Positions 23,151 to 33,921 of a stretch of DNA of 34,197 bases are shown one piece after another. The translations under genes and the position numbers were made by a program. The stretch is from Candidatus Krumholzibacteriota bacterium (GTDB lineage: Bacteria > Krumholzibacteriota > Krumholzibacteriia > LZORAL124-64-63). The stretch spans positions 1-34,197 of the forward strand of contig JAJRZA010000082.1 in the NCBI GenBank assembly GCA_024275485.1. Direction: 5' to 3'. Below the pieces are notes generated by a model. The model had not been told where the DNA came from. It did no database searches and was given only the letters and a program-made list of their open reading frames with translations. The first letter of the stretch is position 1; each line of letters begins with the position of its first letter.

Positions 23151-24485
23151 ATGAGCGAAAACAACCCCAAAGGGAACTCCGGCACTCCCGCCAAAGCGGT
23201 CGAAGTGCGCATCGAAAAAATTCTGAACCAGGGTGATGGACTGGGACGCCACGATGGCCAGGCGGTTTTTGTACCCCTGAGCGCCCCCGGCGATTTGGTT
23301 CGTGCCCATATCATCAAGCAGGGCCGCGGCTTTGTCCAGACCACCTTGAACGAGGTGCTTGAAGCGGGTCCCGACCGCCGGGAAGCTCCCTGCCCTTATT
23401 ATGGGGATTGCGGTGGCTGCAACTTTCAGCACCTGAAACCCGAAGGCCAGCGCCGGGCAAAAGCCGGCATCGTTTTGGAATGTTTCAGTCGGCTGGGCAA
23501 GCTTGATGTCTCCGGGTACCTGACCGGCCCCGAGGCCGTGGGTGATGACCTGGGTTATCGCAATCGTATCCGTGTGTTCGCCAACGATGCCGGTCATTAC
23601 GGTTTGATGCGCCGAGGCTCCCACCATGTGGTGGCCCTGGATTCGTGCCCCCTGCTTCCGGAACAATTCAACACCGACATCCTGCCCTGGTTGCGCATGA
23701 TGCCCCCCGTGGAGCAAATGATCATTCGCCTGGACGGTCGGGGCGGCTGGTTGCTCTCCATGTTTGGACCTTCCCAGCGCATGCGGATGCTGAAAAAAAT
23801 TGTTGCCTCCTTGCCCGAAAACGAGGGACCGGCCCCCGGATGCGTGGGCCTGATGTTCAACAACCGCCTCATGTGGGGCAAAGATTTTCTTATCAACGAA
23901 GTGGCCGGCCACAAGTTCCGCGTCAGCAGCCAGAGTTTCTTTCAGGGCAATCTGGTCGTCACCCAGGAGGCGGTGAGCCTGGCCCGCCAATGGCTCCAGG
24001 AAATTGCCGACGACGGGAAACTGGGGGCCCTGTTGGGCGATCTCTACTGCGGCGTGGGACTGTTCAGCCTCACCCTGGCGGATCTCTTTGAAAAAGTCGT
24101 GGCCATCGACAATAATCCCCATGGAATTCGTGATGCTGAAAACAATGTTCGTCGCGATGCCGCCACCAAAAACAAGGTGACAGTCATCATGGGCGATCTG
24201 GGTAAGGTATTGGCCGACCCCGAAGTGGCTTCCACCGATCAATGGCAAGCGGCCTGTTGCGTTGTCGACCCTCCACGTATTGGCCTGGAAAAAGAGGGCG
24301 TAGAGGGTTTGCTGAACCTGTCACCCCGGCATCTTGTCTACATGAGTTGCGACCCGGCCACCATGGCCCGCGATACTGCCGCTCTCTTGGCTGGTGGTTA
24401 CCAAATCCGGAATTTAAAAGTTTTGGATATGTTCCCTCAAACTTCTCATGTTGAGACCATGATGTTGCTGGAAAAACCTGATTGA
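23151..24485 (+). CDS. RlmD-like RNA uridine C5-methyltransferase
   Basis: A TrmA/RlmD/RlmCD-family enzyme of 444 residues that should place a methyl on C5 of a uridine, most likely in 23S rRNA. Residues 16-72 form a TRAM RNA-binding domain. Cysteines C81, C87, C90 and C166 are the expected [4Fe-4S] ligands. The methyltransferase core has GDLYCGVGLFS (motif I), DPPRIGLE and the nucleophile Cys400 in MSCDPATMARD. All key residues are present and the length is normal. Which uridine is modified (such as 1939) cannot be told from sequence alone. Confidence 0.9.
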   Translation: MSENNPKGNSGTPAKAVEVRIEKILNQGDGLGRHDGQAVFVPLSAPGDLVRAHIIKQGRGFVQTTLNEVLEAGPDRREAPCPYYGDCGGCNFQHLKPEGQRRAKAGIVLECFSRLGKLDVSGYLTGPEAVGDDLGYRNRIRVFANDAGHYGLMRRGSHHVVALDSCPLLPEQFNTDILPWLRMMPPVEQMIIRLDGRGGWLLSMFGPSQRMRMLKKIVASLPENEGPAPGCVGLMFNNRLMWGKDFLINEVAGHKFRVSSQSFFQGNLVVTQEAVSLARQWLQEIADDGKLGALLGDLYCGVGLFSLTLADLFEKVVAIDNNPHGIRDAENNVRRDAATKNKVTVIMGDLGKVLADPEVASTDQWQAACCVVDPPRIGLEKEGVEGLLNLSPRHLVYMSCDPATMARDTAALLAGGYQIRNLKVLDMFPQTSHVETMMLLEKPD

Positions 24486-26938: not shown

Positions 26939-26968
26939 GGCCCACGGTTATCCAGCCGTGGGCCTTTA
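26939..26968 (+). terminator. Intrinsic terminator of the TorF-like gene
   Basis: A perfect 9-bp stem, GGCCCACGG (26939-26947) and CCGTGGGCC (26956-26964), with an eight-base loop is followed by TTTAT, 31 bases after the stop codon. Confidence 0.88.
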
Positions 26969-27046
26969 TCCGGCAAATTGGGCCAACCCCTTGCGCCTGC
27001 CGGGCGTCTTCCTATGCTCATGTAGAACCCGACGAAAGGTGCAACG

Positions 27047-28018
27047 ATGCGATGGACCCCTTTTCCCATTACAATCCTGGTGAGTCTGATCCTGTTTGCA
27101 GGCTGCAAGTCCGATACCGTAACGCCTGATGAAATAATCGCGGATGTCCTGGACACGACGGCGCCCACGGCAACCATCCTGCCCTTGGCGGAAGAACAAT
27201 TCAGCCTCCAATTTGAAATTGAATTCGCAGCCGAGGACGACGACAGCGGTGTCGCGGGTGTGGAAATCCTGGTGCGCACTCCAGACCTGGTGTGGAGCAG
27301 TCTTGGTATTTTCACTGAAAGTCCGGTCACCTATTTGGCCACCGGACCAGGGCCCCATGCCTTTGTGGGTGTGGCCGTGGATTCCGCAGGCAACATTCAG
27401 GAAACTCCCGATGTTGCCCAGGCGGAAACCCAGGTACCGGAGCCCATCATTCTGACCGATGTAACCGGTGAGGAATTCGACATCACCAACGCCGTGTTGC
27501 GGTATTTTCTGACTGCCTCCGCCTGGGGACACGGAATTGGACGCAATACCATCCGTCCCATCATCGATCCCACCTGGATTCTGCCAGGCGAGCCGGCCTA
27601 CCCCCACCAATACAGCACGGCCGATGTTATCGCCCTCTACAGTGATGATGAGGCCCATGCCTATCGTGTCGGCGACATCGCCAACCGCGAAGTGGTCAAC
27701 GATTATATTGGAGGCGCCCACCTGGCTGTCACCTACTGACCTCTCTGTGATGCTGCTGCCGTGTACAGCAGGAATCTCGACGGTCAAATCCTGACCATTG
27801 CCGCCAGTGGCTGGACCTGGCACGACAAATTTGTTCTCCAGGACCTGGAAACCGGAAGCCTTTGGTGGACCGGCCCCGATGTCAACGGTATCGATTTCAT
27901 GCTCTGCGTTGCCGGACCACTTCAAGACTTAAGGTTGCCCCGAGTGGAATCTTTCCGCGGGCTTTGGTTGAGCTGGTTCGAGTTCTACCCGGAGACCAAG
28001 TTCCTGAAATCCAAATAG
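27047..28018 (+). CDS. DUF3179 lipoprotein, candidate selenoprotein with in-frame UGA at 27737-27739
   Basis: Read through the TGA, the product has 323 residues. A lipoprotein signal ends at Cys20 (ILFAGC). Residues about 36-115 form an Ig-like segment (TAPTATILPL ... AVDSAGN). Residues about 130-323 are a DUF3179 domain. The TGA (residue 231) falls in VTY-U-PLCDAAAVYSR, exactly where the family has VTYCPLC, so it replaces the first cysteine of a CxxC motif. The 92 codons after it stay in frame and keep family features: LDG, DLETGSLWW, and the end SWFEFYPETKFL matching the usual W..W...HP.T.VL. TGA ends other genes here (such as ubiX and the TrmJ-like gene), so it is not generally a sense codon. 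A stem-loop sits just downstream. Selenocysteine insertion is the preferred reading; a nonsense mutation is the main alternative. The function of DUF3179 is unknown; the motif suggests redox or metal chemistry. ATG has AAAGG seven bases upstream. Confidence 0.75.
27749..27776 (+). promoter_or_regulatory. SECIS-like stem-loop downstream of the in-frame UGA
   Basis: A 6-bp stem CTGCTG/CAGCAG (27753-27758/27766-27771) closes a seven-base loop CCGTGTA. Below it, GAT/ATC (27749-27751/27774-27776) can pair across a small internal loop. The loop begins 19 bases after the UGA, within the 16-37-base range described for bacterial SECIS elements, and contains GU. The usual guanine among the first two loop bases is absent (it is third), so the match is partial. 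Confidence 0.5.
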
Positions 28019-30105: not shown

Positions 30106-30960
30106 TCAAAGCAAATACAAATCCAACAAAACCACTGCCAGCAGCATCATCCCGATCCAGGAATTGATCTCGAAAAAAGCCTTGTCGATACGTTGCAGAT
30201 CGCCCCCTCGCACCAGGGATTGTTCCCAACCCAAAAGGGCCATCATCCCCACCACACCCACCAAGGACAATACGCCCAGGCTATCCGCACGCCGGAAGGC
30301 ACCGGCCATGAACGCCACACTCAACACATGAAAAACACGGGACAGCATCAGGGCCCGCTGCACACCCAGCCGCGAAGCCAAACTCTGCAAACCGACCTTG
30401 CGGTCGTAATCGGCATCTTGACAGCCGTAAATAGTGTCAAAACCGGCCACCCAGAACATCACCGCTGCGGCCAGCCACAGCGGGAAAGCGGAAAATTCAC
30501 CGGTGACGGCCAGCCAGGCGCCCACCGGAGCAATCCCCAAACCCAGACCCAACACCAGGTGGGCCAAGGGCGTCACCCGTTTCATATAGGAGTAGGCCAG
30601 GACAACCAGCAAGGCCACGGGACTGAGTTTGAAACACAAGGGGTTCAGCATGAAAGCGGCCAGCACCAAAACCATGGCTGACAGGACCACGAACAGCGCG
30701 GCGCCTTTTCGTGAAATCAAACCTGCCGGGATATGGCGGTCGGCCGTGCGAGGATTGTCCGCGTCTATGCCCGCATCCACAAGACGATTGAAGGCCATGG
30801 CCGCGCTGCGGGCGCCCACCATGGCCACCATCACCCACAGCAGGGTGCTCGGGGCGGGCCGACCGTCGGCTGCCACCAGCAAGGAGATCAGTGCAAAAGG
30901 AAGGGCAAAAATCGTGTGCTTGAATTTGATGAGCGAGAGGTAGCGAGTGATGGTGGACAT
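30106..30960 (-). CDS. UbiA-family prenyltransferase for quinone synthesis
   Basis: A membrane prenyltransferase of 284 residues with about eight or nine helices, of the 4-hydroxybenzoate polyprenyltransferase group. The first aspartate-rich motif NRLVDAGID has N58, D62 and D66; the second is YGCQDADYDRKVG. It would attach the polyprenyl tail to an aromatic acid. The ATG at 30960 overlaps the ubiX stop by one base; a longer frame inside ubiX was rejected. With ubiD, ubiX and ubiE it forms a compact quinone operon. In futalosine-pathway bacteria the equivalent enzyme is called MqnP; which precursor is used here cannot be settled from this window. Confidence 0.9.
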   Translation of the reverse strand: MSTITRYLSLIKFKHTIFALPFALISLLVAADGRPAPSTLLWVMVAMVGARSAAMAFNRLVDAGIDADNPRTADRHIPAGLISRKGAALFVVLSAMVLVLAAFMLNPLCFKLSPVALLVVLAYSYMKRVTPLAHLVLGLGLGIAPVGAWLAVTGEFSAFPLWLAAAVMFWVAGFDTIYGCQDADYDRKVGLQSLASRLGVQRALMLSRVFHVLSVAFMAGAFRRADSLGVLSLVGVVGMMALLGWEQSLVRGGDLQRIDKAFFEINSWIGMMLLAVVLLDLYLL

Positions 30961-31616
30961 CAAACCAGCCCTGCCTCGGATTGGTCGTCGGAGCCCCAAC
31001 GAGGAACCAGATTCACCGCCACACCCAGGTGATCGCAAATGCGTTGCACCATGAAATCCACCAAATCACCGGGACTGGTCGGGCGGTGATAAAAGCCTGG
31101 AGCCGCCGGCATGATCAGAGCACCCAGTCCACTCAGCCGGGCCAGGTTTTCCAGGTGATGGGTGGCCAAAGGCGTTTCCCGGGGGACGAGAATCAACTGG
31201 CGCCGCTCCTTCAAACAGACATCCGCCGCCCGCAGCAAAAGCGTTTCGCTGGTGCCGGCCACCATGCGTCCCACGGTGCCCATGCTGCAGGGAACGACGA
31301 CCAAGGGCCCACCCTGGGCGGAACCGCTGGCCATGGGCGCGGAAAAATCATTCTGCCCATACACGTCCAGAACACCGGGACCCATGGTGCGCAATCTTTC
31401 GATCAGGCCATCCACCGGGTGCCCCAATTCAACTGGAGCTGTCTTGCCCACCGCGCTGCTGACCACCAGATCCACGTCGCGGCCCGATTGCAGGAGCACA
31501 TCCACCAGGCGAACGCCGTACACCAGACCACTGGCCCCGGTCCAGGCCACACCGATGGTTGGTTTTTGAGAGGTCGGATTGACAGTAGATTGTTCGTTGA
31601 TTTGTTGCTCACTCAT
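30960..31616 (-). CDS. ubiX: Flavin prenyltransferase UbiX
   Basis: UbiX joins a prenyl group to FMN to make the cofactor prenyl-FMN used by UbiD. The 218-residue protein begins with a 17-residue disordered tail, then GVAWTGASGLVYG (the flavin-binding GASG motif), VVVPCSMGTVGRMVAG (the PCSMxT loop), and LVPRETPLATHHLENLARLS, all characteristic. It starts one base before the ubiE stop ends and overlaps ubiA by one base. It is the obvious partner of the UbiD-type decarboxylase in the same operon. Confidence 0.95.
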   Translation of the reverse strand: MSEQQINEQSTVNPTSQKPTIGVAWTGASGLVYGVRLVDVLLQSGRDVDLVVSSAVGKTAPVELGHPVDGLIERLRTMGPGVLDVYGQNDFSAPMASGSAQGGPLVVVPCSMGTVGRMVAGTSETLLLRAADVCLKERRQLILVPRETPLATHHLENLARLSGLGALIMPAAPGFYHRPTSPGDLVDFMVQRICDHLGVAVNLVPRWGSDDQSEAGLV

Positions 31617-32377
31617 CAGGACAACCTCCCGCCCACCAGGTGAGCGATGCCGAACGTCTGGCGTTCAATAAAAGTATCCTTGAAATCGTACTCGCCGAGC
31701 AGTTCGGCAAATTCTACTGGTGTGAGAAATTCGCCCATACTGCTGGGAAGGTAGCTGTAGGCCTTTCCATCGCGTCCCACCAGTTTGCCCAGAAAAGGAA
31801 TGACCGTGTTGAGACCAAAACGGATGGGGCCGGGTACTCCGTGGGCCTGTCCTTCGGCGTTGGGGTCGTCCCGAAAAAATTCCAACACCAGGAACTGGCC
31901 GCCGGAACGCAACACACGTTTGATTTCTTGCAGGCCACGCCTCACATCGGCAAAATTTCGTACGCCAAAACCCACCGTAACCGCATCGACACTGTGATCT
32001 CGGAAGGGAAGGTTCATGGCATCGGCCGCGGAGAGGACCAAACGGTCGGCGTCTTTCTTGCCCTGGGCCCCTGACAGCATCTCCGGACAAAAATCCGCAG
32101 CGATCCAGGTTTTACCCTTGCCGCCGCGCACGCAGGCCAGGGCCAAATCACCCGTCCCGGCACACAGATCGAGGATCTCCCAGGAATCGTTGTCCAGATG
32201 GGCCACCACGTGGTCGCGCCAGCGTTTGTCCTGGTTCAAACTCAGAAAGTGGTTCATGAAATCGTAACTGTTGCTGATGCGGGCGAACATGGAGCGGACC
32301 TCGCGGCCGTGGGCCTGACCGTCTCGCACGGACCAACTGCCACTTTCACGACCATGAATATCCTTGAACCCGCTCAT
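31616..32377 (-). CDS. UbiE/MenG-type quinone C-methyltransferase
   Basis: A SAM-dependent methyltransferase of 253 residues that performs the ring C-methylation of demethylmenaquinone (MenG) or the equivalent ubiquinone step (UbiE). Visible motifs are MFARISNSYDFMNHFLSL near the start, LDLCAGTGDLAL (SAM-binding motif I), AADAMNLPFRD and VTVGFGVRNFADV, with the family signature FGVRNF. It overlaps ubiD upstream (ATGA) and ubiX downstream by one base. I prefer the menaquinone role because no ubiquinone hydroxylase gene is present here, but that is inference. Confidence 0.92.
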   Translation of the reverse strand: MSGFKDIHGRESGSWSVRDGQAHGREVRSMFARISNSYDFMNHFLSLNQDKRWRDHVVAHLDNDSWEILDLCAGTGDLALACVRGGKGKTWIAADFCPEMLSGAQGKKDADRLVLSAADAMNLPFRDHSVDAVTVGFGVRNFADVRRGLQEIKRVLRSGGQFLVLEFFRDDPNAEGQAHGVPGPIRFGLNTVIPFLGKLVGRDGKAYSYLPSSMGEFLTPVEFAELLGEYDFKDTFIERQTFGIAHLVGGRLS

Positions 32378-33921
32378 GCGCCGCCGCCAAGTCGGGCCAA
32401 AAGATTTTTCCACTTTTCATTCACCATGGTTTTGACTTCGCCGGTCATCTCCACCATCGGTGGCCACTGGCGCTCAAAGCCCATCTCGCCGGCCATTTTC
32501 CGCGTGCCGTCGATGCCCATCTTGCCGCCGTAGCAAGCCAGGTTGACCGAGTGGTCCAGCTGATCCACTGGGCCTTCGCTGAAAAAAACATCCCGACCCG
32601 GGTCGAGGCTGCCGGTCACCCGCCACAAGACCTCGGTCATGTCGTGGGGATCAACATCCTCGTCCACCACCACCACGGTTTTGGTGAACATGATCTGGCC
32701 GGTGCCCCACAGGGCCTGGCACACTTTTCGGGCATGGCCAGGATAGCGCTTCCTGATGCTGATGATGACCAGATTATGAAAACAGGCCGCCACCGGCAGA
32801 TGGTAGTCCACCACTTCGGGCAAAGGAATGCGCAGCAAGGGCAAAAATAGTCGCTCGGTAGCCCAGCCCAGCCAACCATCTTCCATGGGTGGTTTGCCGA
32901 CTATGGTGCTCAGATAAATAGGATCGCGCCGGCTGGTGATGGCCGTAACATGAAAGACGGGAAACTCCTCGGCCAAACTGTACCAGCCGGTGTGGTCGCC
33001 AAAATCGCCTTCGACCCGGCGCTCGTCCGGCTCCACATAGCCCTCGATGATGAAGTCGGCTTCGGCGGGAACCTCCAGGTCGCAGGTCACCGCTTGGGTC
33101 ATGGCCACGGGTTTGCCCGTGAGGAACCCCGCAAAAAGTGCTTCGTCAATATCCGGGGGCAGCGGTGCGGTGGCGGCATAGGTCAACGCCGGAGGACCGC
33201 CAATGGCCACACAAACCGGCATGCGAGTGCCCGCTTTTTCGTGTTCGGCATAATGAGCGGCCCCGGTTTTGTGAATCTGCCAGTGCATGCCGGTGGTTTG
33301 ACCGTCGTACACCTGCATACGGTACATACCGATGTTGCGGCGACCATTGGCTGGATTGCGCGTGATCACCAATGGCATGGTGATGTAGGGCCCGCCGTCC
33401 CCGGGCCAGGTTTTCAGAACCGGCATCAGGTCCAACAATCCGCGCTCATTCAGGTCAACACCCTGAACCACCACTTCCTGGCAGGCTCCATTGGAGACGC
33501 TGCGGGGTATGGAACCACCCCAATCCTTCAGCTTGCCCAACATTCGGACCTTGTCCCACAGTCCATCGGGTGGTCCCATTTTGAGCGGGTCTTCGATGCG
33601 GGACACCGCCTCTTCCAGGTTTTCACAACCCAGAGCCCAGGCCATGCGCTGGCGACTGGCAAAGAGATTGATCAAAAGCGGGACTGGTTTTCCGTCGGCC
33701 TTGAGCGCCACTTCAGTGCGACCGTGTTGCTCACTCAAGAAACCTGGCTGGGGATTTTCAAACAACAATGCCGGATTCTCGCCATTTTTCACAAAACGGT
33801 CAGCCAGTTCCGTCACTTCCAGGGTTGGATCAACCGGTTCACTGATGCGAATCAGTTCACCTTTTTTCTCCAGAAATTCCACGAAGGACTTCAGGTTGTT
33901 GACGGGAATGGTAGAGGACAT
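32374..33921 (-). CDS. UbiD-family prenyl-FMN-dependent decarboxylase
   Basis: A decarboxylase of 515 residues that removes the carboxyl group from a prenylated aromatic acid using prenyl-FMN made by UbiX. The prenyl-FMN-binding segment RRNIGMYRMQVYDGQTTGMHW (about 194-214) is typical. The catalytic E-R-E region is in EPDERRVEGDFGDHTGWY (297-314), close to the family's GDFGDHTG. The length is normal. The start ATG has GAGGA directly upstream. It heads the operon, behind a candidate promoter with adjacent direct repeats. In the futalosine pathway the equivalent enzyme is part of the MqnL/MqnM step. Confidence 0.93.
   Translation of the reverse strand: MSSTIPVNNLKSFVEFLEKKGELIRISEPVDPTLEVTELADRFVKNGENPALLFENPQPGFLSEQHGRTEVALKADGKPVPLLINLFASRQRMAWALGCENLEEAVSRIEDPLKMGPPDGLWDKVRMLGKLKDWGGSIPRSVSNGACQEVVVQGVDLNERGLLDLMPVLKTWPGDGGPYITMPLVITRNPANGRRNIGMYRMQVYDGQTTGMHWQIHKTGAAHYAEHEKAGTRMPVCVAIGGPPALTYAATAPLPPDIDEALFAGFLTGKPVAMTQAVTCDLEVPAEADFIIEGYVEPDERRVEGDFGDHTGWYSLAEEFPVFHVTAITSRRDPIYLSTIVGKPPMEDGWLGWATERLFLPLLRIPLPEVVDYHLPVAACFHNLVIISIRKRYPGHARKVCQALWGTGQIMFTKTVVVVDEDVDPHDMTEVLWRVTGSLDPGRDVFFSEGPVDQLDHSVNLACYGGKMGIDGTRKMAGEMGFERQWPPMVEMTGEVKTMVNEKWKNLLARLGGGA

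Follow-up and report, generated by a model that had tools for sequence, protein, structure and literature searches.

Does the TGA codon that interrupts a DUF3179 gene of a Krumholzibacteriota bacterium end translation, or is it read as selenocysteine (Sec), and what would such a residue do in the protein? The gene (positions 27047–28018, forward strand) lies in contig JAJRZA010000082.1, analyzed over its whole 34,197 nucleotides (hereafter, the window). The contig belongs to a metagenome-assembled genome of 3.98 Mb in 106 contigs, with a completeness of 96%. An initial annotation of the window had put the gene forward as a selenoprotein candidate, on the basis of a single TGA at the position of a cysteine.

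The DUF3179 Reading Frame and Its Predicted Protein

When the TGA at 27737–27739 is read as Sec, the coding sequence specifies a protein of 323 amino acids, from an ATG start codon to a TAG stop codon at 28016–28018. The sequence AAAGG at 27035–27039 resembles a ribosome binding site, with the ATG 7 nt further on. In agreement with the initial annotation, the TGA is the only interruption of an otherwise open frame, within the context VTY-U-PLCDAAAVYSR, and is followed by 92 family-like codons in the same frame. The PF11376 model (gathering cut-off 27) matched the complete read-through product with 82.6 bits (E 4e-23, with UGA as Sec/Cys), the part after the TGA alone with 38.1 bits, and the part before it alone with 21.4 bits. 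We also scanned the other TGA read-through frames of the window, and none of these contained a comparable motif.

The match to PF11376 (residues 192–322; 27620–28012) does not extend over the full 292 positions of the model; it covers positions 26–149 alone, one of apparently two units, and a short match of this kind is common to the members of the subclade of the window protein. The second half of the Cys-containing homolog L055 matches the domain of the window protein (34% identity, E 3e-18), which raises the possibility that PF11376 describes a tandem duplication, of which the window protein may have one copy. When the two halves were compared as profiles, the match was weaker (E 1e-5).

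The N-terminus (residues 1–20; 27047–27106) has the appearance of a signal peptide, in which a hydrophobic stretch, identified by eye, is followed by a lipobox-like end (FAG|C20). The cysteine is retained in the nearest relative (LWLG|C), and the residue at position -3 is not the usual leucine. The lipid anchor on an envelope protein that had been proposed earlier is thus plausible from the position and retention of Cys20, while the lipobox itself departs from the usual pattern. Residues 58–120 (27218–27406) form a weakly supported, beta-rich Ig/OmpL47-like linker domain, that matches the NCBIfam model barrel_OmpL47 with an E value of 0.0039, under the cut-off of that model, and has no match in Pfam. 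Neither the window protein nor any of six family members matched a DUF3179 model in NCBIfam scans, and the sub-threshold OmpL47 match was seen for the window protein only. A phmmer search of the PDB with the window protein gave no match, and the AlphaFold2 model, built on an alignment with one relative, reached a pLDDT of 34.

Selenocysteine Machinery

All four components that are required for a Sec interpretation were identified in the genome: tRNA-Sec (69.5 bits, and a tRNA-SeC call by ARAGORN), SelB (330.6 bits), SelA (449.5 bits), and SelD (366.5 bits). The selD gene contains an in-frame TGA of its own, and the frame across it reads SAGUAAK (L021, G000:C1:20138–21055), so that SelD is itself a predicted selenoprotein. 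In the phylum, matches to the SelB model were found in 77 of 80 genomes and exceeded the family cut-off in 73; the weaker matches can be EF-Tu, as appears to be the case for a second match in several genomes.

The presence of an in-frame TGA within a conserved gene could also reflect a genome-wide reassignment of UGA to a standard amino acid, such as Trp or Gly. This explanation can be practically discounted, as the genome encodes the complete Sec system and as TGA terminates other genes of the window and the genome (for example the TrmA-like gene at 23151–24485, and SelB in L012), as well as many of the homologous genes themselves. The same ordinary stops are in keeping with another reading, in which the TGA of the DUF3179 gene is a true stop that yields a truncated protein of 230 residues, or marks a pseudogene or a sequencing error.

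Conservation of the TGA Codon in Krumholzibacteriota

We gathered all 56 PF11376 genes from the 80 genomes of the phylum, 36 of which contain at least one. An in-frame TGA is present in 40 of the 56 genes, and in each of the 40 it falls in the alignment column of Sec231. Its position is therefore evidently not a matter of chance, as judged from the alignment. The 16 homologs that lack a TGA have Cys (5), Ser (5), His (5), or Asn (1) in this column, never Trp or Gly as a reassignment would predict, and the sequence is conserved on both sides of the site. Alignment of homologs had been suggested as a check on the initial annotation, and the column, with TGA in 40 and Cys in 5 of the 56 genes, bears out the recoding. 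Homologs with Ser, His, or Asn (motifs SPLS, HPLS, and NPLC) were found at L041, L042, L044–L047, L050, L052, L056, L057, and L059; in these proteins the Sec/Cys residue is either dispensable or has a different role.

The genome of the window encodes three DUF3179 paralogs, and a single TGA occupies the homologous position in each of them: VTYUPLC in the window, AATWUPLC on contig C69, and VVSFUGVC on contig C26. The C69 gene (L009, G000:C69:29860–30573) is directly followed by a gene for a molybdopterin oxidoreductase (PF00384 and an Fe4S4 domain; L009:2542–3714). The C26 gene (L010, G000:C26:4115–4681) is very divergent, with an unusual U-G-V-C motif and a different hairpin register.

In a maximum-likelihood tree that was built without the Sec column, the Sec label requires 2 changes, compared to a mean of 14.2 when shuffled; the deep branches of this tree are weak. 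The window gene falls in a clade of 17 members with a support of 100/100, all of which are single-unit Sec proteins. As these members come from four families, Sec is old in this clade.

Constraint Downstream of the TGA Codon

Codon constraint was determined by comparison with L077, the nearest relative (62% identical), from the BB18 MAG of Candidatus Krumholzibacteriia. This MAG was the sole match in a contig scan and is apparently the same genome as G065 (L068), and thus adds no further independent relative. The gene of L077 has a TGA at the same site. Downstream of the TGA, substitutions at codon positions 1, 2, and 3 were 0.24, 0.14, and 0.52, and the amino acid identity was 68%, compared to 54–63% upstream. 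These values indicate that the frame beyond the TGA is under constraint at the protein level. A long antisense open reading frame is present at 26966–27925; the bias of changes toward the third position and the higher protein conservation after the TGA make it unlikely to be the coding strand.

Decay of the downstream region in relatives would speak for a true stop. Two of the 40 TGA genes are damaged downstream of the site, by a TAG in L070 and a frameshift in L076, lesions that may reflect either assembly errors or decay. Against a true stop are the occurrence of the TGA in the same column of 40 genes from many genera, the constraint beyond it, the complete Sec machinery, and the covarying hairpin described below, and we consider truncation, a pseudogene, or a sequencing error very improbable. 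We rejected these explanations, and likewise a reassignment of UGA.

A SECIS-Like Hairpin Follows the UGA Codon

A putative SECIS element was identified immediately downstream of the UGA codon, at 27753–27771, with a stem formed by 27753–27758 and 27766–27771. With the U of UGA as nt 1, all TGA genes except the divergent L010 have a hairpin at nt 17–35 in which 6 or all 7 of the pairs are formed. Among 21 representative sequences, 94.6% of the cells are base paired, compared to 79.6% upon shuffling, and the covariation score is 0.509 versus 0.221, a value reached in 0 of 500 shuffles. Changes on both sides occur in six of the seven pairs, and the covariation signal falls when the arms are slid by 1–3 nt. 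The shuffles leave the relatedness of the sequences in place, for which reason two further controls matter. TGA genes form 6.5 of the 7 pairs, whereas non-Sec homologs form 2.75, although the latter encode nearly the same motif, and when the same peptides were recoded synonymously, the mean was 4.7 pairs.

The hairpin in the window falls within the ranges given for bacterial SECIS elements (upper stem of 4–16 bp, loop of 3–9 nt, 16–37 nt from the UGA, and a minimum free energy of at most -7.5; PMC13188914), with a stem of 6 bp, a loop of 7 nt, a distance of approximately 20 nt, and a folding energy of -9.7 kcal/mol. This energy is unexceptional in comparison with shuffled sequences (z -0.59). 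The loop contains a G-U at nt 25–26 (G27761 and U27762), that is invariant among the aligned representatives; as a conserved Val codon could also produce this, we count it as supportive only. In bacterial SECIS elements a G is expected at one of the first two positions of the loop. The top pair of the hairpin is a C27759–A27765 mismatch in the window and is paired in most relatives, including L068. The G consequently occupies the third rather than the second position of the 7-nt loop, and would be at position two if C-A were counted as the closing pair. In the SECIS of E. coli fdhF, for which we verified that the compared sequence is fdhF, G23 and U24 are located in the apical loop, and U17 and G23 bind SelB (PMC8659212). 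The hairpin of the window resembles this element in its location just past the UGA, its small apical loop with G-U, and its nearly equal distance from the UGA. It differs in being a simple stem of 6–7 bp, without a bulged U17, and with the G-U shifted by 2 nt.

The presence of the four Sec genes, the TGA column in 40 genes, and the covarying hairpin make Sec decoding very likely, and on this genomic evidence we conclude that UGA 27737–27739 is almost certainly decoded as selenocysteine, as the initial annotation had proposed. SelB and Sec-tRNA-Sec would read the codon as Sec231, with insertion directed by the hairpin. The explanation as a whole, of an exported and probably lipid-anchored one-unit DUF3179 selenoprotein, including both its decoding and its role, is highly probable.

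Putative Active Site Residues and Likely Function

The initial annotation placed the Sec in a U-x-x-C redox motif, formed in the window protein by Sec231 and Cys234 (27746–27748). This motif does not hold as a general mechanism. Among the 40 Sec members, the residue at position +3 is Cys in 25, and Ala (8), Val (4), Gln (2), or Thr (1) in the remaining 15, so that U-x-x-C is not a conserved redox pair. A different cysteine, Cys287 (27905–27907, within ETGSLW...LCVAGP), is found at its column in Sec members alone, in 24 of 40 compared to 0 of 16 non-Sec homologs, with a gap at the column in 2 of the 40. Of the Sec members without a Cys at +3, three with UxxV and one with UxxA retain Cys287, and both cysteines are absent from the rest of the UxxA members and from those with UxxQ or UxxT. 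As related sequences do not represent independent events, the association of Cys287 with Sec is a lead rather than proof. A further reading, which we consider less likely than not, is that in the old, Sec-only clade of one-unit lipoproteins of Krumholzibacteriota a lone Sec is resolved by the distant Cys287, so that these two residues, instead of U-x-x-C, would make up the active site.

An exported selenol oxidoreductase is the most likely function that we infer from these features. An envelope selenol/thiol oxidoreductase or peroxidase, with Sec231 as its catalytic nucleophile, is somewhat favored; in support of this, Glu215 (27689–27691), part of an (H/R)E(V/I)VN motif, is nearly invariant (55 of 56 sequences). 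Sec231 would be recycled by Cys234 or Cys287 in the subclade to which the window protein belongs, and by an external reductant where a member has neither cysteine. This interpretation draws on Sec chemistry, on the existence of Cys homologs, and on the neighbors of DUF3179 genes in Thiothrix, Pseudanabaena, and Haloarcula, which are thioredoxin-, peroxiredoxin-, and redoxin-like. Of two other DUF3179 records, one has no redox neighbor and one has a dihydrolipoyl dehydrogenase.

The main rival holds that Sec231 is decoded but serves to bind a metal or metalloid (such as copper, mercury, or heme iron) and does not act as a redox nucleophile. The residues found at position 231 (U, C, S, H, or N) form a set that is common among metal ligands, UxxC can do without its second Cys, and the Ser, His, or Asn of some homologs would suit a ligand or a structural element no less than a nucleophile. 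However, apart from Glu215 and Cys287 no conserved second set of ligands accompanies the site, thioredoxin- and peroxiredoxin-like neighbors occur in some other organisms, and redox enzymes account for most of the known bacterial selenoproteins (PMC9312934). We regard metal binding as rather unlikely.

No operon partner is evident for the window gene, and clustering of the neighbors of its relatives in the single-unit clade gave no convincing common one; the UbiA/UbiX/UbiE/UbiD-like genes at 30106–33921 are located on the opposite strand. In five genomes (L028, L029, L038, L040, and L048), a FlpD/MvhD-like gene (PF02662, matched on L028) lies just upstream of, and is co-oriented with, a two-unit Sec DUF3179 gene, which suggests that its product is a redox partner of the two-unit protein.

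Relation to Known DUF3179 Selenoproteins

The initial annotation knew of no DUF3179 selenoprotein and considered that this one could be new. However, DUF3179 selenoproteins (UxxC/T) were already tabulated (PMC9312934, table 1; PMC13188914), and these reviews trace them to the Olavius algarvensis Delta1 symbiont (Zhang and Gladyshev, 2007). The name "DUF3179 domain-containing (seleno)protein" is in use in RefSeq, where it is given even to a haloarchaeal protein with Cys at the site. Our literature search found no relevant paper connecting Krumholzibacteriota with selenoproteins. Recoding in DUF3179 is thus a known family type, for which there is here a strong case that is conserved across the whole phylum.

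The window protein shares with the known type (PF11376, UxxC/T) the Pfam family, the UGA-encoded Sec, and a UxxC-type motif. It differs in its origin from Krumholzibacteriota and in its single unit, which is preceded by a lipoprotein-like signal and a beta-rich linker; UxxA, UxxV, and UxxQ versions and the Sec-confined Cys287 occur in the phylum as well. Cys-containing DUF3179 proteins (such as Salinirubellus L078, L024, and L025) are homologous in the domain, where the site reads CPLC, CPIC, or CPLT, but differ in the replacement of Sec by Cys and in their two-unit length, and the tested Cys members of the phylum lack the SECIS-like hairpin.

Automatic annotation splits or truncates such genes at the UGA. 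Comparative genomics shows that this family, which has received little study, has long used recoding and has maintained it, and pinpoints Sec231, Cys234, Glu215, and Cys287 as residues for mutation. As one of its sites can hold U, C, S, H, or N, the family is a natural test of the added value of Sec. If Sec does pair with Cys287, this family of no known function would have a selenol active site of an unrecognized kind.
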